Source: Myxococcota bacterium
Lineage (GTDB): Bacteria > Myxococcota_C > UBA6777
DNA length: 25,478 nt
NCBI GenBank assembly: GCA_023150835.1
Contig: JAKLKB010000100.1
Coordinates: forward strand, 1 to 25,478
Reading direction: 5' to 3'
The first letter of the stretch is position 1. Every line of letters begins with the position of its first letter. Position numbers and translations under genes: made by a program. Below, piece by piece: positions 1 to 18,997 of the stretch. The notes below the pieces were generated by a model. The model was not told the origin of the DNA and ran no database searches. It was given only the letters and a program-made list of their open reading frames with translations.

Positions 1-269
1 GCAGACGTGCGCTCCGAAGAGAGACACACCCCCGACACACAGTAGCCCTCGTACTTGAGGTTGCTGCAATCGCAAGAGGCCGCACATTTGAGGCCGCTGG
101 TGTTGTAGTCCGCGATCTGGATGCCGTATTTGCACTCGCCACCGCCCCCGCAAGAAACCACGCTCACCACAACACACCACCCCACTACGATCCATCCAAG
201 CCAACGCATCATAGACGAACGACTCCCTGCCTCAAACACTCCAGTTCCTCTTCGTTCCAACCAAAGCAT
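1..269 (-). CDS. RCC1-family surface lipoprotein, N-terminal part only (paralogue 1, runs off left edge)
   Basis: Only the first 89 or so codons are present; the rest lies left of the window. The ATG at 269 follows AAAGGAG with about 8-9 nt spacing, the same leader as paralogue 4. The protein starts MLWLERRG, and an internal MMRWLG at about residue 20 begins the hydrophobic stretch. That ends in a lipobox-like VVSC followed by GGGGEC, so it is probably an exported lipoprotein. The next Cys-rich segment (KYGIQIADYN, then CDCSNLKYEGYC) matches the N-termini of the three complete genes downstream, so I infer the same architecture: MopE motifs, Stig1 repeats and two RCC1 propellers. An internal ATG at 212 or 209 is the alternative start, but its candidate SD is weaker. 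Confidence 0.85.
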   Translation of the reverse strand, partial: MLWLERRGTGVFEAGSRSSMMRWLGWIVVGWCVVVSVVSCGGGGECKYGIQIADYNTSGLKCAASCDCSNLKYEGYCVSGVCLSSERTS

Positions 270-465
270 CCTTTTCTCTCCTTTGAGCTACGGGACGTTC
301 AAACAAACGACTCTATCGCTTGACATGCCGCGAGTACAGGTTTTTTTTGGCACAAGCAACACCTGTTGTAATTTGGTTGCAAATACAGCGGGGCAGAAAA
401 AACAGCGTCGCTCCTGTACCGAAAAAAATTATGCTCCATCAGCGGATAAGGATAAAGACAGGGAC

Positions 466-580
466 GTCGAACAGTTCCCACATCGCACCTTGAGAAAAGA
501 TGTTCCTGAAAACTAGAGAGAGCCACAAGAGGACTTGTGGCCTCGGAAGCTTCGTTGAGCAACAACAGAAAGGACTGGAC
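466..580 (+). promoter_or_regulatory. Conserved 5' leader of the Cys-rich secreted gene (left, degenerate copy)
   Basis: About 115 nt closely match the leader at 12995-13116 of the intact gene. They share a block around CGAACAGTTCCCAC, a hairpin at 522-541 and an SD-like AAAGGAC at 570-576. The hairpin stem is GCCACAA/TTGTGGC with a 6-nt loop. The stem is identical in both copies while the loops differ, which suggests the structure is what is conserved. The rest of the 270-646 gap is AT-richer and holds the divergent promoter region of paralogue 1; I see no gene in it. Confidence 0.5.
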
Positions 581-634
581 GGTCAACGACCCACCCCTAA
601 AGGGGCGGGCTTGTGAAAGCAAGTCCGGTTGACC
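581..634 (+). mobile_element. 54-bp foldback element inserted in a leader (IS200/IS605-end-like)
   Basis: The element is bounded by a perfect inverted repeat GGTCAAC (581-587) / GTTGACC (628-634). Inside are hairpin CCC-a-CCCC/GGGG-c-GGG (590-609, loop TAAA) and hairpin CTTG/CAAG (610-623), giving a three-way-junction fold. The intact paralogue lacks it: there the SD runs straight into the start codon, so it is an insertion. The layout resembles subterminal structures and palindromic MITEs of the IS200/IS605 (tnpB) group. That assignment is from memory of such ends, and no transposase gene is present. Confidence 0.5.
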
Positions 635-646
635 AGACGACAACAG

Positions 647-763
647 ATGAGAAAAACATGGATGGCGTTTTTGCTGGGCTGCGGGATTTGTCTGCTGCTT
701 CCCTCGGCAGCAAATGCGGGCTATTGCCCTGCCGATTGCGAAAGCTCTGTCCGCGCCAACTGA
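647..763 (+). pseudogene. Truncated copy of the Cys-rich secreted protein (signal peptide plus 14 residues)
   Basis: The 38-codon reading frame starts MRKTWMAFLLGCGICLLL and ends in TGA. Its first 32 residues are nearly identical to the intact gene at 13117-13884, including the signal peptide and the first two mature cysteines (YCPADCE). It diverges and stops just before the CN-x-C-x-C core of the pacifastin-like motif. The ATG no longer has a close SD because the foldback element at 581-634 moved the SD about 70 nt upstream. A GC-rich open frame continues in another phase to about 900 but shows no convincing similarity to the intact gene. I read this as a dead duplicate; expression of a short secreted peptide cannot be excluded. 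Confidence 0.75.
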
Positions 764-835
764 AGCGAAACAGGTGGATCGGAATGCGAAAACAGGCTAC
801 AGCACAAAGCACTCTGCGCCTTGGTGGCTTCGTTG

Positions 836-1041
836 ACCTCACCCCTGCCCCTTCGGGGCATCCCCTCTCCACGCTTGCACTCACTACGTTCGTAGCGTAG
901 AGAGGGGAAAAGGCCAAGGCCGATGGGTCGGGGGTTTTGGCTTTTTACAGAGAGCTACGCTCTTGCAGAAAGCTTCGATTTTCTCCCCCCTCGCCTCCGC
1001 AGCGTAGCAAGCGGGGAGAGGGGGCAGGGGGTGAGGGGTAA
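836..1041. repeat. MITE-like intergenic element with imperfect inverted ends
   Basis: The left end (about 836-880, CTCACCCCTGCCCC then CATCCCCTCTCCACGCTTGC) is roughly the reverse complement of the right end (about 1003-1041, GCAAGCGGGGAGAGGG then GGGTGAGGGG). The left arm contains a perfect hairpin TGCCCC-TTC-GGGGCA at 846-860. No coding capacity is evident. Apart from this element and the terminator candidate, I see nothing in the 764-1152 gap. Confidence 0.45.
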
Positions 1042-1118
1042 GAAGAACCCGAATCCTCTGCCTATCTCGCGTTTTGTACCCCTGTAAGCCCCCCGTAAAA
1101 GCAGGAGAGAGGCTTTCC

Positions 1119-1147
1119 AAAAACAAAAAACAGGCGGGTAAAGCCCG
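1119..1147 (-). terminator. Possible intrinsic terminator of paralogue 2
   Basis: Read on the minus strand, CGGG-ctttA-CCCG is followed by a T-rich run with two T stretches, 6-34 nt after the stop codon at 1153. The stem is only 4 bp, so the call is weak. Confidence 0.3.
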
Positions 1148-1152
1148 ATGCG

Positions 1153-4100
1153 TCAAGGAAAGCGTACAGGTGTGGTAGGTGCCGTTCGATCAAGCGAATC
1201 GCCTGCCCCAAGCTGGCCTTCGTGGTTCCTGCCCCAGCACTTGACGGTGTGGTCATCGAGGATAGCGCAGGTGTGACTTTCTCCCAAGGAGACGGCTTTT
1301 ACGGTACGCCCCGCGCCAAAAGCAACGGGAAGTGTGGGTGGGACGGTTCGTGACATCGTATCACCCAACCCAAGCTGGCCGTAGTAATTGAGTCCCCAGC
1401 ACTTGAGAGAGCCGTTATCAAGGAGCGCGCAGGAGCGATTAGTTGCGACGAAAACGGCTGTTGCGGTGCGCCCCGCCCCGAGATCGACGGGGGTTGCGGG
1501 AGGGGCTATCCGTTGCGTGGTGTCACCGTAGCCGAGTTCACCGTAGGTATTGTTGCCCCAACATTTGACTGTGCCGTTGTCGAGAAGCACACAAGTATGG
1601 CTGTATTCCAAGGCAAGGGCTTTTGCGGTACGTCCCGCCCCCAAATCGAGGGGGGTTATGGGTGGAGCGCGTCGCATTGTGGTGTCACCGTAGCCGAGTT
1701 CACCAAAGGTATTGCTGCCCCAACATTTAACCGAAGCATCGTCAAGGATCGCGCAGGAATGGGATTTTCCTAACACCAAGGTTTTTGCGGTGCGCCCGCT
1801 GCCCAGATCGACGGTGATTGTAGGCGGAGCGGTTCGGTTCACGACATCGTTGTAGCCGAGTTGACCGTAAGTGTTGCGGCCCCAACACTTGATCGAATCA
1901 TTGTCAAGGATCGCACAAGCATGCGTTCCTCCCAAAGCAAGAGCTTTTGCGGTGCGACCCGTCCCGAGTTCGATGGGGTTGGCGGGAGGAGCGTTTCGAT
2001 CGATGGTGTCGCTGTAGCCGAGTTGACCCACGTTATTGCGGCCCCAACACTTGAGGGTGTCGTTGTCGAGGATCGCGCAGGTGTAATAGTCGCCGACATC
2101 AAGGGCTTTTGCGGTGCGGCCTACGCCGATATCCACGACACCTGTAGGTGGGGAGGGTCGAGATACGGTATCACCGTAGCCAAGTTGACCGTACACATTC
2201 TGGCCCCAACATCGGACTTGGCCGTTTTGGAGAGAGCAGTTGTGATACGCTCCAGACTTCAAAGCCATAAGGGGAGACGTGCAACGGAACAAACCGCATA
2301 TCTGGCCGCTTGCGCAGGCGATGTTGCATCCGCCACAATGCGCGGCGGAAAAAGTATCCACACAAGTTCCGCTGCACGTGGTTTGACCGAGCGCAATCGA
2401 TTCGCTTGTCACTTTACTGCGCATGGCAAAATCGCCGTAGCCGAGCTTTCCTTTGGTGTTGTCGCCAAAACAAACAGTGCGTTGGTTGTCCAAGACAGCG
2501 CAGGTGTGGGTCATGCCAACAGAAAGAGTCTTGGCGGTGCGAGCCAGACCGAAGTCCAAAGGGGCGGAGGGAGGGGCGGGTAGGTCTTTGTCTTGGCCGC
2601 TCTCGCCATTTCCAAGTTGCCCTGCATCGTTTGCGCCCCAACAGCGGGCGGTTCCATCGTCAAGCAAAGCGCATCGATGCGAGCCAAGGCCCGAGAACAA
2701 GGCGTGGGCGGTACGACCCGCTCCAAAAGCCACAAGCTCGGCAGGGGGTTTGTTTCGGTCGGTGGTGTCGCCGTAGCCAAGCTGTCCTCGGCTGTTGTCG
2801 CCCCAACACTTGACGGAACGATCATCCAAAAAGACGCAAACATCGGCACGACCGACGCTAAGGGATTTGACGCTGCGGCCTGCACCGACGTCGACGGGTT
2901 GAAGGTGGGGAGCGCTTCGAGGCACCTGATCGCCGAGACCGAGTTGGCCTTTGTCGTTTTTTCCCCAGCATTTGACGGTGTCGTTGTCGAGCAAGGCGCA
3001 AGTAAAAGCATCTCCCGCCCCCACCGCTTTGACACTGCGCCCGATCCCCACATCCACCGCCTTGGCATCGGGCGAAAGGCGCGAAGCCGAGTCCCCGTAC
3101 CCAAGCTGGCCGTGCGCATTGGCTCCCCAACAGCGGAGGCTTGCATCATTCAACACAGCACAGGTGTGGGTCACTCCCGTCGCCGCCCCAACCACCAAAC
3201 GCCCCACTCCCAAGTCCACCCCCCAAAAGATCGGCTTTTCGATATCGGTCAGGTTGCCATACCCCAACTGCCCGTAAGAATTCTTGCCCCAACAAGAAAG
3301 CCCTTGATCAAAGGCCAACACACAGGTATGCGACTCTCCAAGCCAGATCTGCTTGGCTCGCTTTTCTGCACCCTGACCGATCACAAGTGTTTCGCTTGGA
3401 GGCAGAGCATACAAAGCTTTATCTGCGTAGCCCAAAGGAGCGCTGTCACCATCCCCCCAACATTTGAGTTGACCACAAGCCGTAATCGCGCAAGTGTGCG
3501 AAACGCCCGCGACGACCGATAACAGCGAAGTACACCCCCCCGACACACAGATCTCGCCGACAGCACACGCCTTGCCGCACCCGCCACAATGGGCGGCGGA
3601 AGACAGCGTATCGACACAGCTTCCGTCGCAACGGGGATGCGTGGGTTTGCAATCGCACTTGCCCGAAGAGCATTGCTCGCTGAATGGAGCGCAAGGTCGG
3701 TTGCATCCACCGCAATGCTTGGGGTCCGCAGCAACATCCACGCAGACACCTCCGCAGATCCCCGAAGCATCGCGGCATTTGCACTCGCCTCCCTCGCAAC
3801 GCTCGTAAGGTGGGCAGGTTTTGCCGCATCTACCGCAATGTTTGTCGTCCGTCAAAAGATCCACGCAATCGTTGCCACAAACAGCGTAGCCTTGTTTGCA
3901 AGCACACTGCCCTCCCGAGCATTGCTTGCGCTCACCACAAGGATTCGCACATCTTCCGCAATGTAGGTTGTTGGTGGCGGTATCCACACAAACGCTGTTG
4001 CACTCGATCTGCCCGTCGCTGCAACGACATTGACCGCCTCGACACAAGTTGCCTCCGCTGCAAGCCACATCACAGCGACCACAATGTTTGGGATTTGTTT

Positions 4101-4869
4101 GGGCGTCGACACATTGACGGCCACAGCGTAGCTGCGCCGAAGGGCATACGATCTCCTTGCAGCTTGCGGCCTCACAGCGCCACCCATCGACGCAATCCTC
4201 ATCTTTCAAGCATCCGCATTCTTCGTCGGTTTGGCCGTTGCAGTTGTTGTCTAAGCCATCGCAGAGTTCTTTTTGAGGCAGGATCTCGCCCGTACAGGCC
4301 CCCCATGTCGAATCCGCCCCACAGCTTCGGCTTCCTGCGCGGCAGATGCCGATGCCCAAGGTATGGAGCGTTCCCGTGTAGCAATTTTGGGTACGTCCCG
4401 CGACACAAAAAGGCGCACAGTCGGGATCTTCGAGATCGGTGCGACCATCACAATCGTTGTCTTGGCTGTCTGTGCAGGCTGTTGCAGTATTTTCGGGGGT
4501 GGGCGTGGGAGGGATGCAATCGCCCCAAACAAGCTCGGTCAAAGGCTCGGGTTGGGCTTCTTGTTGACCCCATTCACAAGCAGCGACTTTTTGCAACAGT
4601 TTGCATTGTTGGATCTCGCCCTTGCGTTGGGCTGCACGGCGTTGGGTCGAGACGCACGTCCCCGATACGCAGTAGCCCTCATACTTGAGGTTGCTGCAAT
4701 CACAAGGCTTTTTACATTGGAGACCGCTGGTGTTGTAGTCGGCGATCTGGATACCGTTTTTGCACTCACCGCCGCCTCCGCAAGAAGCCATGCCCACCAC
4801 AAAACACAAGGCCAACAAGCTTCCTCCCAACCAGCGCACCGCAAACAGCTTGACTCTCAACCAACGCAT
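1153..4869 (-). CDS. Double-propeller RCC1 / Stig1 / MopE-motif surface lipoprotein (paralogue 2)
   Basis: 1238 aa from the ATG at 4869, chosen because AAAAGGAG lies 7 nt upstream; the frame is open further upstream without a better SD. Residues 1-30 form a lipoprotein signal ending MASC, with Cys30 followed by GGGG. Two Asp-rich MopE-like motifs (CTDSQDNDCDG about 132-142, CDGLDNNCNG about 203-212) probably bind metal. Five Stig1-like repeats (CG-x2-CVD, HCG-x-C, C-x-C) span about 242-447. Propeller 1 has seven RCC1 blades (about 450-820), a sixth Stig1 repeat follows, and propeller 2 has seven more (about 858-1238). The blade pattern is C-x8/9-CWG-x-N-x2-GQLGYGD. The C-terminus ends PVRFP, where other blades have PVDLG, consistent with strand closure of the ring. 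Likely anchored in the outer membrane as a binding or adhesion scaffold; ligand unknown. RCC1 here indicates a fold, not a GTPase exchange factor. Confidence 0.9.
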   Translation of the reverse strand: MRWLRVKLFAVRWLGGSLLALCFVVGMASCGGGGECKNGIQIADYNTSGLQCKKPCDCSNLKYEGYCVSGTCVSTQRRAAQRKGEIQQCKLLQKVAACEWGQQEAQPEPLTELVWGDCIPPTPTPENTATACTDSQDNDCDGRTDLEDPDCAPFCVAGRTQNCYTGTLHTLGIGICRAGSRSCGADSTWGACTGEILPQKELCDGLDNNCNGQTDEECGCLKDEDCVDGWRCEAASCKEIVCPSAQLRCGRQCVDAQTNPKHCGRCDVACSGGNLCRGGQCRCSDGQIECNSVCVDTATNNLHCGRCANPCGERKQCSGGQCACKQGYAVCGNDCVDLLTDDKHCGRCGKTCPPYERCEGGECKCRDASGICGGVCVDVAADPKHCGGCNRPCAPFSEQCSSGKCDCKPTHPRCDGSCVDTLSSAAHCGGCGKACAVGEICVSGGCTSLLSVVAGVSHTCAITACGQLKCWGDGDSAPLGYADKALYALPPSETLVIGQGAEKRAKQIWLGESHTCVLAFDQGLSCWGKNSYGQLGYGNLTDIEKPIFWGVDLGVGRLVVGAATGVTHTCAVLNDASLRCWGANAHGQLGYGDSASRLSPDAKAVDVGIGRSVKAVGAGDAFTCALLDNDTVKCWGKNDKGQLGLGDQVPRSAPHLQPVDVGAGRSVKSLSVGRADVCVFLDDRSVKCWGDNSRGQLGYGDTTDRNKPPAELVAFGAGRTAHALFSGLGSHRCALLDDGTARCWGANDAGQLGNGESGQDKDLPAPPSAPLDFGLARTAKTLSVGMTHTCAVLDNQRTVCFGDNTKGKLGYGDFAMRSKVTSESIALGQTTCSGTCVDTFSAAHCGGCNIACASGQICGLFRCTSPLMALKSGAYHNCSLQNGQVRCWGQNVYGQLGYGDTVSRPSPPTGVVDIGVGRTAKALDVGDYYTCAILDNDTLKCWGRNNVGQLGYSDTIDRNAPPANPIELGTGRTAKALALGGTHACAILDNDSIKCWGRNTYGQLGYNDVVNRTAPPTITVDLGSGRTAKTLVLGKSHSCAILDDASVKCWGSNTFGELGYGDTTMRRAPPITPLDLGAGRTAKALALEYSHTCVLLDNGTVKCWGNNTYGELGYGDTTQRIAPPATPVDLGAGRTATAVFVATNRSCALLDNGSLKCWGLNYYGQLGLGDTMSRTVPPTLPVAFGAGRTVKAVSLGESHTCAILDDHTVKCWGRNHEGQLGAGDSLDRTAPTTPVRFP

Positions 4870-4937
4870 ACTTTGGCTCCTTTTCGGGATAATACGATAT
4901 CCGAGAGCATTGTACACGAAGGGCGGGCGCGATCTGC

Positions 4938-4994
4938 TATAGACGCCCTGTTCTTGGGCAGCCACGGGGGGCTGCCCCTACATCTTCCGCGTAC
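4938..4994 (+). repeat. Palindromic intergenic repeat, family A, copy 1
   Basis: A 57-bp unit containing ACGCCCTGT, then a perfect 8-bp stem GGGCAGCC (4956-4963) / GGCTGCCC (4970-4977), then CCTAC and ending GTAC. It aligns almost end to end with 25389-25444 and partly with 25268-25301. Sitting 47 nt after the stop codon of paralogue 3, it could also act as a transcription barrier between paralogues 3 and 2. Confidence 0.6.
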
Positions 4995-5040
4995 ACAATG
5001 GGCGGATTTCGAATAAATCGCGCAAGCAAAACAAACAAGA

Positions 5041-8000
5041 TCAAGGAAAAGGCAACGGATCGAAGTCGGGCGCGCTGCGGTAGATCGTGTCGCCATAACC
5101 GAGCTGTCCGTGAGGGTTGACTCCCCAACATTTGAGGGAATGGTTGTCGAGGATCACACAAGCGTAAGATTTCCCGACGTCAAGGGCTTTTGCGGTGCGA
5201 CCCGCACCAAGATCAACAGGGTTGGCGGGGGGAGCGGTTCGGTTGATGATATCGCCGTAGCCGAGCTCTCCATTCGCGTTGGCTCCCCAGCATTTGACGG
5301 TATCGTTACGGAGGATCGCGCAAGCGAAGTGCTTGCCCACGGCAAGCGTTTTCGCCGTCTGCCCCCCGCCGAGATTGATCGGGTTGATGGAGGGAGAGGT
5401 CCGGTTTGTGGTGTCGCCGTAGCCGAGTTGGCCCGAAGTGTTGCTCCCCCAACATTTGACGGTATCGTTGTCGAGGATCGCACAAGAGGATGTATCCCAG
5501 AAAGCAAGGGCCTTTGCGGTGCGACCCGTCCCGAGATCCACAGGATTGGCGGGGGGAAAGGTTCGGATTGTGGTGTCGCCGTAGCCGAGTTGGCCCGAAG
5601 TGTTGCTCCCCCAACATTTGAGGGTGTCGTTGTCAAGGATCGCGCAAGTGTAGTTTTGCCCCAAAGCAAGGGCTTTGGCGGTACGGCCCACGCCCAGATC
5701 GACGGGGGTTGGGGGGGGGGAGTTTCGCTGGATGGTATCGCCGTAGCCAAGCTGTCCGAAGAGATTCCATCCCCAACACTTGAGAGTATCGTTGTCGAGG
5801 ATCGCGCAGGAGTGAGAGGCTCCCAAGGCAAGGGCTTTTGCGGTGCGCCCAGCGCCGAGATCGACGGGGGTCGAGGGGGGAGATTTTCGCGAAATGGCGT
5901 CAGCCAAGCCAAGCTGCCCGTCAGAGTTGCCCCCCCAACATTTGAGCGTATCGTTGTCGAGGATCGCGCAGGAGTGAGAGGCTCCCAAGGCAAGGGCTTT
6001 CGCGGTGCGGCCCGCGCCAAGATCTACAAAGGCGGTCGGCGGGGCCGTTCGGCTTGTGATGTCGCCGTAGCCAAGCACACCGTCACCGTTCCACCCCCAA
6101 CACCGAAGTTGGCCGCTTTGTAAAGAACAAGAGTGTTCGTTCCCCAAAGCGACTGCCGTCACTCCAAGAACACAACGCCCGACGTTGCACATCTGGTTGG
6201 CTGCACAAGCAGCGCTACACCCGCCACAATGATCGGGCGAAGCCAAGATATCAACACAAGCGCCGCCACAGATCGCCTGCCCCAAAGCGATCGGATCGCT
6301 GGGTTTGATGCGCGAGTTCGTGTCGCCATATCCGAGCTTTCCACCCCCACCATCCCCCCAACAGACGGTGCGTTGGTTGTCCAAGACAGCGCAAGTGTGG
6401 TTCATACCGACAGAAAGAGCTTTTGCGGTGCGACCCATACCGAAGTCCAAAGCAACGGAAGGAGGGGCGGACTGGTCTTTGCCTTGGCCGCTTTCACCGT
6501 TGCCAAGCTGCCCTGTATCATTTGCCCCCCAACAGCGGGCAGTTCCATCATCAAGCAAAGCACAGCGGTGTGAGCCAAAGCCCGAGAACAAGGAATGGAC
6601 GGTGCGGCCTGCTCCAAAAGTCACAAGCCCAGCAGGGGGCTTGTTTCGATCGGTGGTATCGCCGTAGCCAAGCTGTCCTCGGCGGTTGTCACCCCAGCAC
6701 TTGACGGAGCGATCATCCAACAAGACGCAGACATCGGCACGACCGACGCTAAGGGATTTGGCGCTGCGCCCTACACCGACGTCGACGGGTTGAAGGTTGG
6801 GAGCGTTTCGAGAGACCTGATCGCCAAGACCGAGTTGGCCTTTGTCGTTGTTTCCCCAGCATTTGACGGTGTCGTTATCAAGCAAGGCACAAGTGAAAGC
6901 ATCTCCCGCACCCACAGATTTGACACTGCGCCCGATCCCCACATCCACCGCCTTGGTATCCGGCGAAAGTCGCGAAATTGCATCGCCATAGCCAAGCTGG
7001 CCTTTGTCGTTTCCGCCCCAGCAACGCAGGCTTGCGTCATCCAAGATCGCGCAAGTGTGGTTGACACCAACGACCACTTGAGTTGCATAACGACCCACCC
7101 CCATCCCCACACCCGACAGGCTCGGAGCCGCAAGAGCGATCGTGTTTCCGTATCCTAACTGCCCGACTTGGTTTTCTCCCCAGCAATGCACACGAGAATC
7201 CACCAACGCACAGGAATGTTTTTCCCCAAGCACCACTTGTCGGACGAGTTCCACACCAGATGCGCCAAAAACGAGCGACCGCCCGCTTGGAGAAAAGCGG
7301 ATCCGACCATCCCCATAACCAAGCGCAACACGATTTCCATACCCCCAACATTTGAGTCGCCCGCAAACCGTGACAGCACATGTATGGGAAACACCCGCAA
7401 CGATCGACAACAGCGGATTGCAAACGCCCGCTTTGCAAGCTTCGCCCACAGCACAAGCCTTGCCACATCCGCCACAATGGGCCGTAGAAGACTGCGTATC
7501 GACACAGCTTCCGTCGCAGCGGGGATGCGTGGACTTGCAATCGCACTTGCCCGAAGAGCATTGCTCGCTGAACGGAGCGCAAGGTCGGTTGCATCCGCCA
7601 CAATGCTTGGGGTCCGCAGCGATATCCACGCAGACGCCCTCGCAGATCCCCGAAGCATCGCGACATTTGCACACGCCTCCCTCGCAACGCTCGTAATGTG
7701 GGCAAGCTTTGCCGCAGGTTCCGCAATGTTTGTCGTCCGTCAAAAGATCCACGCAATCGTTGCCGCAAACGGAGTCGCCTTGTTTGCACAAGCATTGCCC
7801 TCCCGAACATTGCTTGCGCTCACCACAAGGATTCGTGCATTTTCCGCAGTGCAGGTTGTTGGTGGCGGTATCCACACAAGCGCTGTCGCACTCGCTCTGC
7901 CCATCGCTGCAACGGCATTGACCACCTCGACACAAGTTCCCTCCGCTACAAGCCACACCACAGCGACCGCAATGTTTGGGATCGGTTTGCGGATCGACGC

Positions 8001-8772
8001 ATTGACGACCACAGCGCAGTTGTGCCGAAGGGCATACGATCTCCTTACAGCTTGCGCCGGCCTCACAGCGCCAACCCTCGACGCAATCCTCGTCTTTCGA
8101 GCATCCGCATCCTTCGTCCGTTTGGCCGTTGCAGTTGTTGTCCAAACCGTCGCAAAGCTCTTTTTGAGGCAGGATCTCGCCCGTACAGGGTCCCCACATC
8201 GAATCAGCCCCACAGCTTCGACTCCCTGCGCGACATACGCCGATGCCCGACGTGCTGGGCGTTCCTGTGTAGCAATCTTCGGAGCGCCCAGCGGAACAGA
8301 AGGGCGCACAGTCGGGATCTTCGAGGTCGGTGCGACCATCACAATCGTTGTCTTGGCTGTCTGTACAGGCTTTTACCGTATTTTCGGGAGTGGGCGTGGG
8401 AGGGATGCAATCGCCCCAAACAAGCTCGGTCAGAGGCTCGGGTTGGGCTTCTTGTTGACCCCATTCGCAAGCGCCGACTTTTTGCAACAGTTTGCATCGT
8501 CGGATCTCGCCCTTGCGTTGGGCAGGAAGGCGTTGGGTCGAGACGCACGTCCCCGACACGCAGTAGCCCTCATACTTGAGGTTGCTGCAATCACAAGGCT
8601 TTTTACATTGGAGACCGCTGGTGTTGTAATCGGCAAGCTGGATGCCGTTTTTGCACTCGCCTCCGCCTCCACAAGAAGCCATGCCCACCACAAAACACAA
8701 GGCCAACAAGCCCCCTCCCAACCAACGCATCATGCGCGATTCGACAACGAGAACACGGGTTTTTTTTGTCAA
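5041..8772 (-). CDS. Double-propeller RCC1 / Stig1 / MopE-motif surface lipoprotein (paralogue 3)
   Basis: 1243 aa if translation starts at the TTG at 8772, which has GGAG 8 nt upstream. The ATGs at 8733/8730 begin the more usual signal MMRWLGGGLL but have no visible SD. All paralogues carry such a 9-20 residue extension before the MRWLG-type core. The lipobox-like MASC is followed by GGGGEC. Domain order is as in paralogue 2: two MopE-like motifs, five Stig1-like repeats, seven RCC1 blades, one Stig1 repeat (CGGACVDILASPDHCGGC), seven RCC1 blades. Blades 2 and 3 of propeller 2 share a 53-nt block exactly (5786-5838 and 5948-6000, 162 nt apart). The C-terminus is DPLPFP. It sits between paralogues 2 and 4 on the same strand, with gaps of 171 and 93 bp. 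Exported surface protein; ligand unknown. Confidence 0.88.
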   Translation of the reverse strand: MTKKTRVLVVESRMMRWLGGGLLALCFVVGMASCGGGGECKNGIQLADYNTSGLQCKKPCDCSNLKYEGYCVSGTCVSTQRLPAQRKGEIRRCKLLQKVGACEWGQQEAQPEPLTELVWGDCIPPTPTPENTVKACTDSQDNDCDGRTDLEDPDCAPFCSAGRSEDCYTGTPSTSGIGVCRAGSRSCGADSMWGPCTGEILPQKELCDGLDNNCNGQTDEGCGCSKDEDCVEGWRCEAGASCKEIVCPSAQLRCGRQCVDPQTDPKHCGRCGVACSGGNLCRGGQCRCSDGQSECDSACVDTATNNLHCGKCTNPCGERKQCSGGQCLCKQGDSVCGNDCVDLLTDDKHCGTCGKACPHYERCEGGVCKCRDASGICEGVCVDIAADPKHCGGCNRPCAPFSEQCSSGKCDCKSTHPRCDGSCVDTQSSTAHCGGCGKACAVGEACKAGVCNPLLSIVAGVSHTCAVTVCGRLKCWGYGNRVALGYGDGRIRFSPSGRSLVFGASGVELVRQVVLGEKHSCALVDSRVHCWGENQVGQLGYGNTIALAAPSLSGVGMGVGRYATQVVVGVNHTCAILDDASLRCWGGNDKGQLGYGDAISRLSPDTKAVDVGIGRSVKSVGAGDAFTCALLDNDTVKCWGNNDKGQLGLGDQVSRNAPNLQPVDVGVGRSAKSLSVGRADVCVLLDDRSVKCWGDNRRGQLGYGDTTDRNKPPAGLVTFGAGRTVHSLFSGFGSHRCALLDDGTARCWGANDTGQLGNGESGQGKDQSAPPSVALDFGMGRTAKALSVGMNHTCAVLDNQRTVCWGDGGGGKLGYGDTNSRIKPSDPIALGQAICGGACVDILASPDHCGGCSAACAANQMCNVGRCVLGVTAVALGNEHSCSLQSGQLRCWGWNGDGVLGYGDITSRTAPPTAFVDLGAGRTAKALALGASHSCAILDNDTLKCWGGNSDGQLGLADAISRKSPPSTPVDLGAGRTAKALALGASHSCAILDNDTLKCWGWNLFGQLGYGDTIQRNSPPPTPVDLGVGRTAKALALGQNYTCAILDNDTLKCWGSNTSGQLGYGDTTIRTFPPANPVDLGTGRTAKALAFWDTSSCAILDNDTVKCWGSNTSGQLGYGDTTNRTSPSINPINLGGGQTAKTLAVGKHFACAILRNDTVKCWGANANGELGYGDIINRTAPPANPVDLGAGRTAKALDVGKSYACVILDNHSLKCWGVNPHGQLGYGDTIYRSAPDFDPLPFP

Positions 8773-8780
8773 CGGCGTCA

Positions 8781-8784
8781 CTCC
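8781..8784 (-). promoter_or_regulatory. Shine-Dalgarno site deciding a TTG start for paralogue 3
   Basis: GGAG on the minus strand lies 8 nt before TTG (8772). The downstream ATG pair at 8733/8730 is preceded by GAATCGCGC, with no SD. An alternative reading is that TTGACA at 8772-8767 is a -35 hexamer; I see no convincing -10 at the right distance. Confidence 0.5.
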
Positions 8785-8801
8785 TAATGATGCTTTGGAT
8801 G

Positions 8802-8881
8802 GCTCTCTCAAGGAAAGCGCACAAGACGGTGCTTTGGAGGTCTCTCTCTGCGTTGGAGGACTCTCTCAAGGAAAGCGCACA
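8802..8881. repeat. Short tandem duplication of the paralogue 3' end
   Basis: CTCTCTCAAGGAAAGCGCAC occurs at 8803-8822 and again at 8861-8880. The second copy is the terminal coding sequence of paralogue 4 (VRFP-stop on the minus strand). The first, 58 bp away and intergenic, still reads LVRFP-stop. A partial third unit (GCTTTGGAGGTCTCTCTC) lies between them. It may be a scar of unequal recombination in the array. Confidence 0.6.
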
Positions 8882-11800
8882 GGATGGTGTTCGGGAGCAG
8901 ATCGCGGCAGGACATCGCCCATCCCAAGCTGCCCCTCGGCATTGCGGCCCCAACAGCGCATCGAATGATCTTGCAAGATCACGCAAGCATGGTGGCTTCC
9001 AAGCGAGAGGCGTTCAGGCCGAACACCGACCCCCAAGTCGATCGAGGTCGCAGGGGGTGCGTTGCGGGTGGTCAAGTCGCCATAGCCAAGTTGTCCGTAA
9101 GCGTTGTTGCCCCAACACTTGAGAGCGTCGTTATCGAGAATCGCGCAACCGAAGCTGTGTCCCACCGCAAGGGCTTTTGCGGTGCGCCCGACACCGAGAT
9201 CAACGGGGGTTGATGGGGGAGCGTTTCGGCTCGTGGTGTCGCCGTAGCCGAGCTGGCCTTCTATATTTGCTCCCCAACACTTGACGGTGTCGTTGTCGAG
9301 GAGCGCACAAGTGTATTCGCTGCCCAAAGCAAGGGCTTTTGCAGTGCGACCTGCCCCGAGATCGACGGCAGTCGTAGGCGGAGAGGTTCGTTGGGTCGTA
9401 TCGCCGTAGCCGAGTTGGCCAACAGCGTTGCGGCCCCAACATTTGACGGAGGAATCGTCAAGGATCGCACAAGAGTGTGAACCTCCCAAGGCAAGGGCTT
9501 TGGCGGTACGGCCCACGCCAAGATCGACGGTGGTTGGGGGGGGAGAAGTTCGAGTTGTGGTGTCGCCATAGCCAAGCTGCCCAAAAGTGTTCCATCCCCA
9601 GCACTTGAGCGTGTCGTTGTCGAGGAGCGCGCAGGTGTGGGAGGCTCCCAAGGCAAGGGCTTTTACAGTACGCCCGACACCGAGATCGACGGGGGTTGAG
9701 GGGGGAGTGTTTCGGTTTGTGGTGTCAGCCAAACCAAGCTGCCCGTAAGAGTTGCCCCCCCAACATTTGAGCGTGTCGTTGTCGAGGAGCGCGCAGGTGT
9801 GGGAGGCTCCCAAGGCAAGGGCTTTTGCGGTGCGGCCCGCGCCCAGATCGATGGGCGTGGTGGCAGCAAAAAAGCGCGAAGTGTGATCGCCATAACCGAG
9901 TTGACCGACGTTGTTGTATCCCCAACACTTGATCTGCCCTGCTTGAAGAGAACAGGTATGACCCGCTCCAGAGGCGAAAGCGTCCATTTGAGGGATGCAG
10001 CGGCTGCCGTTGCAGCCTTGGTTTGCGGCACAAACGACGTTGCATCCGCCACAATGCGCGATAGAAAAAGTGTCCACACAAGCTCCGCCGCAGACTGTTT
10101 GGCCCAGCACGATCGACTCCTCCGTCACTTTGTTGCGCGGGATCTCATCACCATATCCGAGCTTTCCACCGCGCCCATCCCCCCAACAAACGGTGCGTTG
10201 GTTGTCCAAGACAGCGCAAGTGTGGTTCATGCCGACAGAAAGAGTCTTTGCGGTGCGACCCATACCGAAGTCCAAAGCAGCGGAAGCAGGGGCGAGTTGG
10301 TCTTTGTCTTGGCCGCTCTCGCCGTTTCCAAGCTGCCCTGTATCGTTTGCGCCCCAACAGCGGGTAGTTCCATCGTCAAGCAAAGCGCAGCGGTGCGAGC
10401 CAAGGCCCGAAAACAAGAAGTGGGCAGTACGACCCGCCCCAAAAGCTACAAGCTCGGCAGGAGGCTTGTTTCGGTCGGTGGTGTCGCCGTAGCCAAGCTG
10501 TCCTCGGCTGTTGTCGCCCCAACACTTGACGGAACGATCGTCCAACAAGACGCAGACATCGGCGCGACCGACGCTGAGGGACTTGACGCTGCGTCCTGCA
10601 CCGACATCAAGAGGCCGAAGTTCTGGCGCGTTTCGAGGCATCTGATCACCGAGACCTAGCTGGCCCTTGTCGTTGTTTCCCCAGCATTTGACGGTGTCGT
10701 TGTCGAGCAAGACACAAGTGAAAGCGTCTCCCACCCCCACAGATTTGACACCGAGTCCGATCCCCATATCGATGGCGATCTTTGGGGGCGCGAAGCGCCA
10801 AGTCGCATCGCCGTACCCGAGCTGGCCGTTGTCATTGGCCCCCCAACAACGGAGGCTTGCGTCATCCAACACCGCGCAAGTATGTTTGGAACCGACAGCC
10901 ACTTGGACAGCGAAACGACTGGCTCCAAAGTCCACCGCGATCCCGCTCGCGGCGAGAAGCGGTTTGACATCCCCATAACCCAATTGCCCGTCGTGGTTGG
11001 CCCCCCAACAGTACAAACGCCTGTCCACCAACAAAGCACAAGCATGCGTTCGACCGATCGCGATCTGTCGAACTTGTCGTTGTTTGCCTTGGCCGATGGC
11101 GCTCACCTCCATCAAAGCAAAACGGCGGATGCCTTGCTCTCCGTAACCAAGCGAGCTTTCAGAACCATCCCCCCAACATTTCAGCCGCCCACAGGCCGTG
11201 ATCGCGCAAGTGGACGAAACACCCGCAACAACCGACACCAGCGAAGCGCAAACGCCCTCTTCGCAAGCCTCGCCAACAACACACGCCTTGCCGCACCCAC
11301 CACAATGATCAACAGACGATCTTGTGTCCGTACATTTTCCATCACAACGGAGATGGGCGGGCTTGCAATCGCACTTGCCCGAAGAACATCGCTCGCTGAA
11401 CAGATCACAAGTCTTATTGCATCCGCCACAATGCTTGGGATCCGCAGCGATATCCACACAAACGCCCTCGCAGCTCCCCGAAGCATCGCGGCATTTGCAC
11501 ACGCCCCCTTCGCAACGCTCGTAATGTGGGCAAGCTTTGCCGCAGGTTCCGCAATGTTTGTCGTCCGTCAAAAGCTCCACACAATCGTTGCCACAAACAG
11601 CATAGCCTTGTTTACAAGCACATTGATATCCCGAGCATTGCTTGCGCTCACCACAAGGATTCGTGCATCTTCCGCAGTGTAGGTTGTTGGTGGCGGTATC
11701 CACACAAACGCTGTTGCACTCGATCTGCCCATCGCTGCAACGGCATTGACCACCTCGGCACAGGTTCCCTCCGCTACAAGCCACACCACAGCGACCGCAA

Positions 11801-12615
11801 TGTTTGGGATCGGTTTGCGGATCGACGCATTGACGGCCACAGCGTAGCTGCGCCGAAGGGCATACGATCTCCTTGCAGCTTGCGGCCTCACAGCGCCACC
11901 CATCGACGCAATCCTCATCTTTCAAGCATCCGCATTCTTCGTCGGTTTGGCCGTTGCAGTTGTTGTCCAAACCATCGCAGAGCTCTTTTTGAGGCAAGAT
12001 CTCACCTGTACAGGCCCCCCATGTCGAATCTGCCCCACAGTTTCGGCTGCCTGCGCGGCACACGCCGACGCCCAAGGTATCGAGCGTCCCCGTGTAGCAG
12101 GTTTGATTCAGTCCCGCGACACAAAAAGGCGCACAGTCGGGATCTTCGAGATCGGTGCGGCCATCGCAATCGTTGTCTTGGCTGTCTGTGCAGGCTGTTG
12201 CAGTATTTTCGGGAGTGGGCGTGGGAGGAATGCAATCGCCCCAAACCAGTTCGGTCAGAGGCTCGGGTTGGGCTTCTTGTTGACCCCATTCGCAAGCGCC
12301 GACTTTTTGCAACAACTTGCAACGTTGGATATCGCCCTTGCGCCGGGCTAGAACACGAGGGTTGGAGACGCACGTCCCCAACACACAGTAGCCCTCGAAC
12401 TTGAGGTTGCTGCAATCACAACCAACTGTGCATTTGAGTCCGCTGGTATTGTAGTCGACGAGTTGGATGCCGTTTTTGCACTCGCCACCGCCCCCACAAG
12501 AAGCCGTGCCCACCGCAAAACACACAGCCAACAAGCTCCCCCCCAACCAGCGCATTGTAGACAACAAAGCCGCGACGGCGCCCACCCAACCCACGTTCCA
12601 TTCCAGCCAGCGCAT
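8866..12615 (-). CDS. Double-propeller RCC1 / Stig1 / MopE-motif surface lipoprotein (paralogue 4)
   Basis: 1249 aa from the ATG at 12615, selected by CAAAGGAGCG ending about 5 nt upstream (GGAG spacing 9), the same leader as paralogue 1. The N-terminus MRWLEWNV is followed by a second MRWLGGSLLAV core and a TASC lipobox-like site before GGGGEC. Domains are as in its neighbours: MopE-like CTDSQDNDCDG and CDGLDNNCNG, five Stig1-like repeats, seven RCC1 blades, a Stig1 repeat (CGGACVDTFSIAHCGGC), seven RCC1 blades. The C-terminus is HHPVRFP. Propeller-2 blades 2 and 3 share 60 identical nucleotides (9605-9664 and 9767-9826), exactly one 162-nt blade apart. It heads the array and is divergent from the Cys-rich secreted gene at 13117, separated by 501 bp. 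Predicted outer-membrane-anchored and rigidified by many disulfides; ligand and partner unknown. Confidence 0.9.
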   Translation of the reverse strand: MRWLEWNVGWVGAVAALLSTMRWLGGSLLAVCFAVGTASCGGGGECKNGIQLVDYNTSGLKCTVGCDCSNLKFEGYCVLGTCVSNPRVLARRKGDIQRCKLLQKVGACEWGQQEAQPEPLTELVWGDCIPPTPTPENTATACTDSQDNDCDGRTDLEDPDCAPFCVAGLNQTCYTGTLDTLGVGVCRAGSRNCGADSTWGACTGEILPQKELCDGLDNNCNGQTDEECGCLKDEDCVDGWRCEAASCKEIVCPSAQLRCGRQCVDPQTDPKHCGRCGVACSGGNLCRGGQCRCSDGQIECNSVCVDTATNNLHCGRCTNPCGERKQCSGYQCACKQGYAVCGNDCVELLTDDKHCGTCGKACPHYERCEGGVCKCRDASGSCEGVCVDIAADPKHCGGCNKTCDLFSERCSSGKCDCKPAHLRCDGKCTDTRSSVDHCGGCGKACVVGEACEEGVCASLVSVVAGVSSTCAITACGRLKCWGDGSESSLGYGEQGIRRFALMEVSAIGQGKQRQVRQIAIGRTHACALLVDRRLYCWGANHDGQLGYGDVKPLLAASGIAVDFGASRFAVQVAVGSKHTCAVLDDASLRCWGANDNGQLGYGDATWRFAPPKIAIDMGIGLGVKSVGVGDAFTCVLLDNDTVKCWGNNDKGQLGLGDQMPRNAPELRPLDVGAGRSVKSLSVGRADVCVLLDDRSVKCWGDNSRGQLGYGDTTDRNKPPAELVAFGAGRTAHFLFSGLGSHRCALLDDGTTRCWGANDTGQLGNGESGQDKDQLAPASAALDFGMGRTAKTLSVGMNHTCAVLDNQRTVCWGDGRGGKLGYGDEIPRNKVTEESIVLGQTVCGGACVDTFSIAHCGGCNVVCAANQGCNGSRCIPQMDAFASGAGHTCSLQAGQIKCWGYNNVGQLGYGDHTSRFFAATTPIDLGAGRTAKALALGASHTCALLDNDTLKCWGGNSYGQLGLADTTNRNTPPSTPVDLGVGRTVKALALGASHTCALLDNDTLKCWGWNTFGQLGYGDTTTRTSPPPTTVDLGVGRTAKALALGGSHSCAILDDSSVKCWGRNAVGQLGYGDTTQRTSPPTTAVDLGAGRTAKALALGSEYTCALLDNDTVKCWGANIEGQLGYGDTTSRNAPPSTPVDLGVGRTAKALAVGHSFGCAILDNDALKCWGNNAYGQLGYGDLTTRNAPPATSIDLGVGVRPERLSLGSHHACVILQDHSMRCWGRNAEGQLGMGDVLPRSAPEHHPVRFP

Positions 12616-14799: not shown

Positions 14800-14827
14800 T
14801 TGACACAACGCAGGAATTGGCGTTGTG
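14800..14827 (+). promoter_or_regulatory. Putative promoter -35 overlapping an operator-like inverted repeat
   Basis: TTGACA (14800-14805) overlaps a perfect 8-bp inverted repeat CACAACGC (14804-14811) / GCGTTGTG (14820-14827) with an 8-bp spacer. It lies about 100 bp upstream of the WD40 lipoprotein start. No good -10 hexamer is visible at 17 nt, so an activator-dependent promoter or a repressor site are both possible. Confidence 0.4.
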
Positions 14828-14929
14828 GTAAAGCGAGCAAGCAGGCCAAACAACGGGGGCTACCGCACCGCAGCACACGTTGTTTGGACACCCCATCGGC
14901 AGGCTTTTTTGGACGTATTGAGGTTTGAC

Positions 14930-17900
14930 ATGCAACGGTACCCCACACCGCCAACGCCCCCTTTGCGCGCTTTTTTGATAGGCATCGGTTTGTGTTTTTT
15001 GATCGGATTTTTTGCGTTCGGCTTATCCGCGTGTGCCGATCCCAACGCTCCCAAGACATGCAGCGACAACGCCGAGTGCAGCGGCGAGCGCCGCTATTGC
15101 GTGGGGGGGGTGTGCCGCTTTTGTATCCAAGACCAAGATTGTGGGCAAGGCAAACGCTGCCAATCCAACGTCTGTATCGAAGCAACGACCGAGGCGGCAG
15201 GCGAATCCGCCCAAGAAGACGCAAGCGCCGAGGCTGATCCCACTGATTCTTCGGCAGAACAGACCCGCCCCGAAGAAGAAGCCGCCAACACCGAAGACAG
15301 CGGCCCGACAGAAAGCATCGCCGAACAACCACCCTCCGACGAACCCAAAGGCCCCTCTTGCAAACCCGATCCAGATGATCTCACGGCTTGTTGCGCGCCC
15401 ACACAAAGCAAGCTGTTGTGGCAGCCTCATCTGCTTTTTGGCGCACGCAATCCCCAAGTGCGCCTCGCCGTCCACCCCGCAGGAACCCATCTTGTGACGG
15501 TCGCAGATGACGAACCCACGCTGCGGATCTGGCGCACCAACAACGGTGTCTTGGACAACGTGATCAACAACTTGAATGCCAGCCCGGGTTCGTGGTACGT
15601 CGCTTATGCGCCTGACGGAAAGACCCTTGCGACGGCGGATCGCGACTACAACGTCCGTCTGTTTGATACCACGACAGGCGCGCTCAAACACACCCTCACA
15701 GGCCACACCAGTTTTGTGTACGGCGTGGCCTTTTCTCCCAATGGAAAGCTCCTTGCTTCCGCAGGTTCGTTTGATCGAACGATACGCATCTGGGATCTCG
15801 CCACCAACAAACAACTCTTGAGCCTCGCTCATGCCAGTACAACCCGCGTGGTGCGCTTTTCTCCCGATAGCACGATGCTTGCGGCAGCGTCGGATGATCG
15901 GTTGATCAAGCTGTGGAATGTCGCGGACGGCAAACTGATCCGCGATATCACAGGACACACCAGCACGATCTGGGGCATTGACTTTTCTCCTGACGGAAAG
16001 CTCCTTGCATCGGGTTCTTCGGATCTATCCGCACGCCTCTGGAACGTTGCTGACGGCAAGCTATCCAAAACGCTGACGGACTCGACGGGCCCCGTCTACG
16101 ATCTCGCCTTCTCGAAAGACGGCAAGATGCTTGCGGTCTCTGGCGGAAGTCAGCGCGTGGTGCATCTTTACGACACCGCAACGTGGGCACGCACCAAGCA
16201 ATTCACAGGATACGCTTCGGGCAACATCTTTTCGTTGGGCTTTTCGCCGAATGGAACGGCCCTTTACACCAGCGCAGACGATCGCACGATGCGTCATTAC
16301 ACCGTCGCCGACGCGATGACTTCTCGCGTGATCTACACCAACTCGGAGCGCCACGTTGAAGTCGCCACCAGTCCCAAAGGAAAGTGGATGGCCGCAGCCA
16401 GCGTCGTGCGCCAAGAAGTGCGGCTGTGGCAAGTCGGCCAGTACGATCAGCGCAAGTCCCTGAACGAACACCCTGCGGGCGTCGCAGCGTTGGCCTTTTC
16501 CCCCGATGAGGCGCTACTCGCAACAGGTGGAGAAGACGGCGCGATCCGCTTGTTTGGCACAGCCGACGGCAAAAAAACCCGAGAACTCGTCGGCCACAAG
16601 CTCCCCACGCGTGCGATTGCTTTTTCACCAGACGGAAAAGCCCTTGTATCGGCATCTTGGGATCGAGATGTCCGCCTTTGGAATGTTGCGGACGGCAAGC
16701 TGATCCGCAACATCAGCGGTCAGCACCCTGCCGTGATCTCGGCAGTGAAGTTTTCACCTGACGGAAAGCTCCTTGCAACGGCCTGTGCCGATCACAATGT
16801 TCGCCTGTTCAATGCAGTAGATGGAACTCTTTTGCAAACGCTCACAGGCCACACACGTTGGGTGTTCGACCTCGCGTTTTCGCCCGACGGAACGCAGATG
16901 GCGTCGGTCTCCGAAGACGTCAGCATCCGCTTGTGGAAGATCCCAAGCGGCGAGTCGGCGCAAACATGGACGGGTCGGCATCTGAGCGTGATCCGCCGCG
17001 TGGATTTTTCCCCTGATGGGCAGCTACTGGTCACCAGCTCTTACGATCAATATGTCAAGCTGTTGCGCGCCAGCGATGGTGAGATCTTGCAGATGTATCG
17101 GGGTTTTAATGGCTTCGTAAGCAGCGCGCACTTTAGTCCTGACGGACGCCGTATCGTGACGGGCGCTTGGGATGAAACCATCCGCATCTGGCAAGTTGAA
17201 ACCAAAGGCCGCCTCTCTCGCACCCTTGATGGCCAGACCCAGATCGTCAGCCAAGTCATCCTCCATCCTCTCGGTCACACCGCCGTATCCACCACCGAAG
17301 TGGGTTTCGCTCTGATCTGGGATACCGCCACATGGCAAGTCCGCCACAAACTCGAAGGGCATGAAGGCGGTGTTTTTTCTTTGGCCTACTCTCCCGACGG
17401 AAAGACCCTTGCGACGGGCGACAACAAAGGCAATGTCTTTCTGTGGGATGCCGCCACAGCCAAAAAACAAAAAGAACTGAAAGGCCACACCAGCCGCGTC
17501 GCAGCCCTCGCCTTCTCACTCGATGGAAAGACCCTTGCATCGGGATCATGGGACACACATATCCGCCTCTGGTCGGTGACTGATGGCAAAGAAAAAAGCG
17601 TCGTGCGCGGACACGAAGGCTATGTGCTTTCGTTGGCGTTTGCGCCCAACGGAACGCACCTTGTATCGGGTTCTTATGACCGCTCGATCCGTGTGTGGGA
17701 TCTCAACGACAACAACAAAGAGATCCAAAAGCTGATCTCTCAAGGCGGTGGCATCACACAGATCGGCTTTTCCCCCAATGGGGCCTATCTTGCAAGCGCC
17801 GCCTACGACTCCACAGTACGGATCTGGAATGGGGCCAATTACGCAGGTATCCGTACGCTTACAGGCCATGTACGCGCAGTCGCCAGTCTCGCTTTTTCTC

Positions 17901-18997
17901 CCGACAGCGAGATCCTCTACTCCGGAGCTTGGGACAAAACGATCCGCGCTTGGCGTGCCGCCGATGGACACCTCTTGCAAAACTTTGAAGGGCACACCCA
18001 AGGCGTCATCAGCCTTGCGATCGCCCCTGACCACGCATGGATGCTCTCGGCAGGCGAAGACGCCAAGATCCATGTCTGGCAAGTCGGCCAAGATAGACTT
18101 ATGGAAACCCTTTATACCAGCCCGTTCGGAGTGCTCGGTCTTTCGGTGAGCCCCGATGATGCGTGGGTTGCAACAGGTGGCTATGATCGTGTACTCAAAC
18201 TCTGGAACAGCCAAACCACCGCAGCATACCGAACGTACAGCAGCCATGCTGCCGAGCTTTTGGATGTCACCGTGACAAGCGACGCGGCAACCGTCGCCTC
18301 AGGCTCCGAAGACAAGCGCGTGCGCTTGTGGAGGCGTTCCGACGGATCGCTGTTGCGACAGATCGGAACAGAACACGACGGCGGCGTCACCAGCGTGCGC
18401 TTTACCAAAGATGACAAGACCCTGCTGACCGCCTCACGCGACGGCAAGTTGCGCTTGTGGAACGTCGCCGATGGCAAGCTCACCAAGACCCTCGAAGGCC
18501 ACACCGACGAAGTCTTGCGTGCGATCTTTTCTCCAGATGATAGCCTGATCGCCTCTTCCGACCGCAAGGGCGAGATCTATGTCTGGAAAGTCGCCGATGG
18601 AAGCGTTGCTTACAAGATCACCGCCCACACCAAAGCTACACGCGATCTGACTTTTTCACGCGATGGCAACTTCCTCTTCTCGATCTCAGACGATCAAACG
18701 CTGCGGATGTGGTGGGTGACTGACGGAAGGCCGCTGCTTACACGCAACCTATCGATCATACCAAACCGCCTGTGCATGGGCCCCAAAGATGCGTGGCTGG
18801 CTCTTTCCAACCAACAAGACGGCGTCGTCCAGTTGTGGAATCCTGAGACCATGCAGATCATCACGCGGCTCTCCACACAATCGCTTGCGCTGACGTCCCT
18901 TGCTTGTGGAAACAAGGCAACTATGCTGTTTGCAGCGAACCACAACGGCCTTGCTTTTGGCTGGACTTGCCCGATCCAAGCCCCGCCCAAGCCCTAA
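14930..18997 (+). CDS. Giant WD40-repeat lipoprotein with 28 blades
   Basis: 1355 aa from the ATG at 14930, with GAGG 6 nt upstream; the open frame extends to 14825 without a comparable SD. Residues 1-35 are a lipoprotein signal with a good lipobox, LSAC (Cys35). Residues about 40-77 hold a compact Cys motif (CSDNAEC, YCVGGVC, DQDCGQGKRC), then an acidic Ala/Glu/Pro linker to about 145 and a small Cys cluster (DDLTACC). From about 165 to the end I count 28 consecutive WD40 units of about 42 residues, each with FSPDG-type and IRLWNVADGK-type strands, i.e. four seven-blade propellers. No kinase, NACHT or protease domain is fused. Probably a periplasm- or surface-facing interaction scaffold. It is followed after 64 bp by the GH31 gene on the same strand, suggesting co-transcription. 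Partner unknown. Confidence 0.9.
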   Translation: MQRYPTPPTPPLRAFLIGIGLCFLIGFFAFGLSACADPNAPKTCSDNAECSGERRYCVGGVCRFCIQDQDCGQGKRCQSNVCIEATTEAAGESAQEDASAEADPTDSSAEQTRPEEEAANTEDSGPTESIAEQPPSDEPKGPSCKPDPDDLTACCAPTQSKLLWQPHLLFGARNPQVRLAVHPAGTHLVTVADDEPTLRIWRTNNGVLDNVINNLNASPGSWYVAYAPDGKTLATADRDYNVRLFDTTTGALKHTLTGHTSFVYGVAFSPNGKLLASAGSFDRTIRIWDLATNKQLLSLAHASTTRVVRFSPDSTMLAAASDDRLIKLWNVADGKLIRDITGHTSTIWGIDFSPDGKLLASGSSDLSARLWNVADGKLSKTLTDSTGPVYDLAFSKDGKMLAVSGGSQRVVHLYDTATWARTKQFTGYASGNIFSLGFSPNGTALYTSADDRTMRHYTVADAMTSRVIYTNSERHVEVATSPKGKWMAAASVVRQEVRLWQVGQYDQRKSLNEHPAGVAALAFSPDEALLATGGEDGAIRLFGTADGKKTRELVGHKLPTRAIAFSPDGKALVSASWDRDVRLWNVADGKLIRNISGQHPAVISAVKFSPDGKLLATACADHNVRLFNAVDGTLLQTLTGHTRWVFDLAFSPDGTQMASVSEDVSIRLWKIPSGESAQTWTGRHLSVIRRVDFSPDGQLLVTSSYDQYVKLLRASDGEILQMYRGFNGFVSSAHFSPDGRRIVTGAWDETIRIWQVETKGRLSRTLDGQTQIVSQVILHPLGHTAVSTTEVGFALIWDTATWQVRHKLEGHEGGVFSLAYSPDGKTLATGDNKGNVFLWDAATAKKQKELKGHTSRVAALAFSLDGKTLASGSWDTHIRLWSVTDGKEKSVVRGHEGYVLSLAFAPNGTHLVSGSYDRSIRVWDLNDNNKEIQKLISQGGGITQIGFSPNGAYLASAAYDSTVRIWNGANYAGIRTLTGHVRAVASLAFSPDSEILYSGAWDKTIRAWRAADGHLLQNFEGHTQGVISLAIAPDHAWMLSAGEDAKIHVWQVGQDRLMETLYTSPFGVLGLSVSPDDAWVATGGYDRVLKLWNSQTTAAYRTYSSHAAELLDVTVTSDAATVASGSEDKRVRLWRRSDGSLLRQIGTEHDGGVTSVRFTKDDKTLLTASRDGKLRLWNVADGKLTKTLEGHTDEVLRAIFSPDDSLIASSDRKGEIYVWKVADGSVAYKITAHTKATRDLTFSRDGNFLFSISDDQTLRMWWVTDGRPLLTRNLSIIPNRLCMGPKDAWLALSNQQDGVVQLWNPETMQIITRLSTQSLALTSLACGNKATMLFAANHNGLAFGWTCPIQAPPKP

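Follow-up and report, generated by a model that had tools for sequence, protein, structure and literature searches.

Three tandem genes of a Myxococcota bacterium encode large proteins that each carry two predicted seven-blade RCC1 rings, and sequence comparison with their relatives indicates that variation is confined to one face of the ring, at the positions that a plant relative, UVR8, uses for partner binding. This confinement is the new part of the analysis. The frame of the blade appears to be under purifying selection and the face to be diversifying, with omega at the face above 1 in one orthologue pair from the organism's own genus. Because the frame is held while the face changes, binding of a variable partner is the most likely function, and we consider it probable that the proteins make up a surface-recognition family undergoing diversification, a bacterial and extracellular parallel of the fungal HNWD propellers. 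Environmental bacteria commonly encode RCC1 repeat proteins, and for very few of these is a function known. A fixed frame combined with change on the binding surface of a relative gives them a testable one, variable recognition outside the cell; it also names six positions per blade as the residues expected to decide binding and points to the rings as a robust stapled scaffold.

Gene Array and Domain Architecture

The window (the whole stretch of 25,478 nucleotides that was analyzed) is a complete contig of a 7.56 Mb genome that comprises 239 contigs and is 93% complete. Within 1153-12615, the genes P0001, P0002, and P0003 lie head to tail, all on the minus strand, and encode proteins of 1230-1249 aa. 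The first-pass annotation had described at least four giant paralogues in tandem on one strand, which it did not name; the tandem arrangement stands with three complete genes, whereas the fourth member is an 89-aa N-terminal piece (3-269, minus strand) cut by the contig end. P0001 (1153-4869) has 1238 aa counted from Met33 (AAAAGGAG upstream), P0002 (5041-8733) has 1230 aa, and P0003 (8866-12615) has 1249 aa counted from Met45. The domain order is the same in all three: a leader, a Cys-Gly-Gly-Gly motif, MopE-type motifs, several Stig1-type modules in a row, a first set of seven RCC1 blades, a Stig1 spacer, and a second set of seven. On the minus strand of P0001, the mature N-part with its lipobox-like Cys62-GGGG, MopE motifs, and Stig1-type array occupies 3529-4782 (PF11617 at 35.1 bits, PF04885, NF041328), followed by ring 1 (blades 1-7, 2392-3528), the Stig1-type spacer (2275-2391, a Stig1 Pfam match), and ring 2 (blades 8-14, 1156-2274), whose seven C-x8/9-CWG blades match RCC1_2 and RCC1. 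The seven-blade rings of P0002 lie at 6283-7416 (ring 1) and 5044-6165 (ring 2, covered by an AlphaFold2 model) on either side of a spacer at 6166-6282 with a Pfam Stig1 match at residues 844-881, all on the minus strand. Those of P0003, likewise on the minus strand, lie at 10108-11244 (ring 1, seven blades, covered by predicted strands and pLDDT) and 8869-9990 (ring 2, seven blades), with the spacer (sequence and Stig1 Pfam match) at 9991-10107.

Each complete protein has exactly 14 blades, spaced by about 54 aa within a ring and interrupted by a single 88-aa step between blades 7 and 8, as expected from the earlier proposal of seven plus seven blades around a Stig1-like spacer. The cysteine pair, originally assigned to nearly every blade, is found in all of them: C-x8/9-C[W/F]G is present in 42 of 42, with the motif of P0001 blade 7 ending in CFG and a third Cys present in blade 1 of ring 1. 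Matches over the Pfam cut-off amount to 14 RCC1_2, 11-12 RCC1, 4-6 Stig1, and 1 MopE per protein. The RCC1 repeat superfamily (PF13540/PF00415) accounts for 14 RCC1_2 stretches in each protein at 298-327 bits (cut-off 22), the Stig1 profile (PF04885) scores 55.9-89.7 bits (cut-off 24.1), and the MXAN_6577-like Cys-rich profile (NF041328) scores 156-225 bits (cut-off 100). Stig1-type modules form an array ahead of ring 1 in addition to the spacer between the rings. The MopE metal-binding motif (PF11617) reaches 30.4-35.1 bits against a cut-off of 27 as a putative metal site, and it lies in the N-part near the lipobox-like Cys, where such motifs had been placed at first pass. We take the D-x-D/N-x-D-G loops of these motifs to look as much like a Ca-type site as a Cu-type site.

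Every copy has a hydrophobic leader followed by a conserved Cys-Gly-Gly-Gly, with Met or Thr at position -3 in the full genes and a lipobox that reads VVSC (VVSC-GGGG) in the fourth-copy fragment. P0001-P0003 are described here as probably exported, lipid-anchored cell-surface proteins, with their parts presumably exposed at the surface. A defense-system reading was set aside after PADLOC returned no match for P0001 or P0003.

Several other features of the window deserve mention. A plus-strand gene at 14825-18997, divergent to the adjoining RCC1 genes, encodes a 1390-aa lipoprotein-like protein that consists almost entirely of WD40 repeats, whose 22 matches would suffice for three rings. P0007 (12961-13884, plus strand) is a 307-aa Cys-rich protein with a weak Pacifastin_I match. 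Downstream of P0001, a short relic (629-763, plus strand) resembles the P0007 leader, suggesting that a duplicated segment included the P0007 gene. The gene at 21983-23668 on the minus strand encodes an aldehyde dehydrogenase-family protein of 561 aa, whose Aldedh match is only partial and weak (39.6 bits). Elsewhere in the same genome, 238 places match P0003, mostly in modules of the Stig1/MopE type only, so the genome holds many Cys-rich genes of this type.

Predicted Structure of the Rings

The rings of P0003 were modeled with AlphaFold2 from an alignment of 7 sequences, giving five models with pLDDT from 53 to 81. The ring model has a mean pLDDT of 81.2, with blade cores above 90 and three strands per blade, and its ring 2 superimposes on UVR8 with a Z score of 55.3 (1.6 Å over 362 residues; Foldseek TM 0.92). 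In a separate 1200-aa model of P0002 with a pLDDT of 67.1, ring 1 matches UVR8 with a Z score of 47.6 (2.3 Å over 360 residues). Because the match to UVR8 runs along all seven blades, the rings appear to be closed, and two closed seven-blade rings are predicted, in keeping with the closed rings and intrablade Cys pairs that had first been proposed. The paired cysteines of P0003 are found on neighboring strands of one blade that a tight turn connects, as with C130 (strand 128-133) and C140 (strand 138-142), and from this strand assignment we infer that the two side chains are close. Disulfides would then be expected to form in the blades of P0001-P0003 in vivo. The CRINKLY4 ectodomains (7a0j, 7a0k) and TEM-1-bound BLIP-II (1jtd) also match the ring models. 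CRINKLY4 has seven repeats with C(X~10)CWG pairs that are likely disulfides (PMC4617170); given this description and the match of its repeats, the stapled blade is a known design.

Distribution of the Architecture

The first-pass annotation had not recognized this design as described anywhere. That part of the claim finds no support: apart from the stapled ring of CRINKLY4, the same domain order occurs in KLAP109, a metagenome-assembled genome of the same genus titled Myxococcota and the nearest named relative among the genomes compared, and Chloroflexota have CWG rings in twos or threes. Two further proteins of the organism's own genome (C151, C26) and two of KLAP109 (C129, C382) repeat the pattern of seven blades, an 88-aa step (87 in C382), and seven blades. 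Complete blade groups were counted across Myxococcota, Chloroflexota, Oligoflexia/Bdellovibrionales, Actinomycetota, and Legionella. Of these 63 groups, 48 have exactly 7 blades and 3 have exactly 14 (51 of 63 together), and the blade number of seven is not due to chance. Ring layouts of [7,7] and [7,7,7] are found in Roseiflexaceae and of [14] in Oligoflexia; the idea that the double ring is unique was dropped, as both Chloroflexota and Oligoflexia have it. In the other genomes of the family that were examined, the open reading frames inspected have single rings or form one giant frame, so the Stig1-spaced double ring may be a genus-level trait within this lineage. The giant frame itself (G002:C26, 446000-485999; L065, L066) is 12,255 aa long and contains at least three seven-blade RCC1 rings; a 4,999-aa piece of it that was scanned combines Stig1 modules with propellers of the RCC1, NHL, SBBP, WD40, and Vgb-lyase types.

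Variation on One Face of the Ring

Blades were aligned in a register that sets the first Cys to 0, and positional entropy was taken over the ring-2 blades of seven related proteins. The highest values fall at +13, -4, +15, +16, +26, and -3 (3.1-3.5 bits; the next position has 2.97), and the frame is almost fixed. The UVR8 residues named for the dimer interface, its salt bridges, and its Trp center are E43, D44, W94, D96, D107, D129, R146, E182, R200, W233, R234, W285, R286, W337, and R338 (PMC8748919, PMC5091643). Placed in the same register, these 15 residues occupy exactly -4, -3, +13, +15, +16, and +26. The chance that a random six of 54 positions would match this set, which consists of the residues named in two papers rather than a full contact map and is independent of the variability measured here, is 3.9e-8. 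Topology places the -4/-3 turn on the same side of the ring as the +13 to +16 loop, and the turn between strands 2 and 3 (+4 to +7) is on the opposite side and mostly conserved. This turn and the other exposed loops (+28 to +34) vary less than the six face positions.

The pattern extends beyond the genus. All six positions rank in the top nine in each of four other blade sets (Chloroflexota, Oligoflexia/Bdellovibrionales, Actinomycetota, and other Myxococcota), and when four close homologue pairs drawn from two phyla are pooled, the most-differing positions are +15, +16, -3, +13, +26, and -4. Single-pair rankings do not always return exactly the six, and in the Gordonia and Oligoflexia tandems divergence is too high for them to be informative; a GC-rich Acidimicrobiales tandem pair (omega_face 3.8, GC3 0.87) was left out of the pool because its dS is not trusted. 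Within the window, blades 4-7 of ring 1 have conserved faces. In the open-access subset of the literature, writing on bacterial RCC1 surface proteins is sparse, and no paper on face-restricted diversification of bacterial RCC1 rings was found.

Selection and Blade Exchange

Selection was assessed by pairwise counting of substitutions, with omega_face computed for the six positions and compared with omega in the rest of the blade. Between the tandem paralogues P0001-P0003, ring 2 is 12-24% identical on the face versus 65-73% in the rest of the blade. The dS between these genes varies as a mosaic: the stalk and ring-1 blades 4-7 differ by about 0.3-0.5, and ring-1 blades 1-3, like ring 2, by about 0.8-1.8. 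Such a pattern suggests that gene conversion has affected the stalk and a portion of ring 1 and that the variable parts are older or separately kept. C26 and its KLAP109 orthologue C129 are 31% identical on the face and 84-85% elsewhere, with an omega_face of 1.82 (blade bootstrap 1.44-2.32) and an omega of 0.21 elsewhere. Depending on the blade, their dS lies between 0.09 and 1.70; some of these blades have therefore also been exchanged, and exchange can mimic selection. With clearly orthologous blades only, omega_face is 2.01 (Fisher p 0.0014). A Roseiflexaceae pair is 68% identical on the face versus 95% in the rest, with an omega_face of 1.39 (CI 0.84-2.19).

For the window's own P0001, the evidence is of a fast face. 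Compared with its KLAP109 orthologue C484, from which it differs by a dS of about 0.25-0.37 across both rings, the ring-2 face evolves at 4.3 times the rate of the remaining positions (p 5e-6), while omega_face over both rings is 0.69 (CI 0.42-1.12); a value above 1 is not proven here. In C484 itself (L021, ~2235), a TGA interrupts the frame ahead of the last blade, reflecting either assembly error or decay. Neutral repeat shuffling was rejected as the whole cause of the face variation, as P0001 blades pair with their own orthologous blade in 13 of 14 cases and the omega_face of C26-C129 still reaches 2.0. The early guess of a recognition system has thus gained support from the face variability and the selection data, although not from an omega_face above 1 in P0001.

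If the rings had no role in recognition, the six positions could be those exposed sites on which constraint is weakest in a surface layer of structural or adhesive function, drifting near neutrality, and the two pairs with an omega_face of 0.60-0.69 (L020-L031 at 0.60, together with P0001) are what such drift would give. We judge this quite improbable in light of the C26-C129 pair (omega_face 1.8-2.0, Fisher p 1e-4 to 1e-3), the value for the Roseiflexaceae pair, and the exact coincidence of the six positions with the interface set. Escape and recognition account equally well for positive selection on one exposed face, and the apparent surface lipoprotein design would suit surface antigens or phage or predator receptors whose face varies as the cell evades outside binders rather than to meet new ligands. 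Escape is nonetheless an unlikely explanation, since the varied set is exactly the relative's partner-binding surface while other exposed loops vary less, and since the stalk should also change, yet it is constrained (dN 0.048-0.081).

A diversifying recognition family, our preferred reading, would work as follows. A constant Cys-rich stalk of MopE motifs and Stig1-type modules would hold two rigid rings away from the membrane, and the one flat face of each ring, with six positions per blade and up to 42 per ring, would serve as the contact surface. Point substitution under selection and blade exchange would alter this face while the disulfides hold the frame. Putative partners are variable proteins or glycans carried by other cells, by prey or phages, or by kin. 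The gene family would supply several binding specificities per cell. Recognition as the function of the rings is itself our inference. Extended to at least four phyla, the same idea describes an extracellular repertoire of stapled RCC1 ring receptors, combinatorial and positively selected on one face, as a counterpart of HNWD directed at self, prey, phages, or competitors; we advance this wider version tentatively, as possible rather than probable.

Comparison with Known Systems

Blade, fold, and modules are all known already, and double rings recur in other phyla. UVR8 is the best fold match for both rings, and its dimer face corresponds to the positions that vary here, but it is an intracellular plant light sensor without Cys pairs in its blades, and its face serves one fixed partner. 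CRINKLY4/ACR4 (PDB 7a0j, 7a0k) comes closest in the blade, having seven extracellular RCC1-like blades each with C(X~10)CWG, and it matches P0003 ring 2 in fold (Z 26.0, 2.4 Å over 258); there is also a profile match (E 4e-12). It differs in having one ring, TNFR-like repeats, a transmembrane helix, and a kinase, and in lacking the double ring, lipobox, and Stig1 stalk; P0001-P0003 gave no Pfam match to a kinase domain and end with ring 2. In Myxococcus, the RCC1 repeat protein MXAN_0889 was detected among outer-membrane vesicle proteins (PMC4158809), the shared feature being the repeat type.

BLIP-II is a secreted bacterial seven-blade propeller that binds beta-lactamase with picomolar affinity (PMC6121496), and it matches P0003 ring 2 (1jtd_B, Z 26.8, 2.1 Å over 243). 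This precedent raises the prospect that the proteins are secreted or anchored inhibitors of foreign enzymes, with each ring face fitted to its own target. BLIP-II, however, is a single small ring with no Stig1 stalk and a known enzyme target; an inhibitor would need neither a lipid anchor nor a pair of rings nor a stalk of such length, and no target candidate lies nearby, which makes inhibition very improbable.

The nearest parallel to a diversifying recognition family is with the HNWD proteins of Podospora (het-d/het-e/het-r; PMC1805685, PMC2873952), in which positive selection acts on four codon positions in each WD40 repeat, every one of them at the interaction surface (PMC1805685). Both systems combine a fixed repeat frame, a few fast-changing positions per repeat, a multigene family, and repeat exchange. 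HNWD proteins are fungal, cytosolic NLRs that join WD40 repeats to NACHT and HET domains, and their concerted evolution is strong, whereas here it is partial; the Pfam search of P0001-P0003 returned no WD40 repeats with NACHT, but RCC1 instead. For positive selection restricted to one face, as in HNWD, omega_face is 1.82 in C26-C129 and 0.69 (CI 0.42-1.12), not proven to exceed 1, in P0001. We therefore read P0001-P0003 not as members of the HNWD family but as proteins that may work like them, which would extend a design known from intracellular non-self recognition in fungi to extracellular proteins of bacteria.
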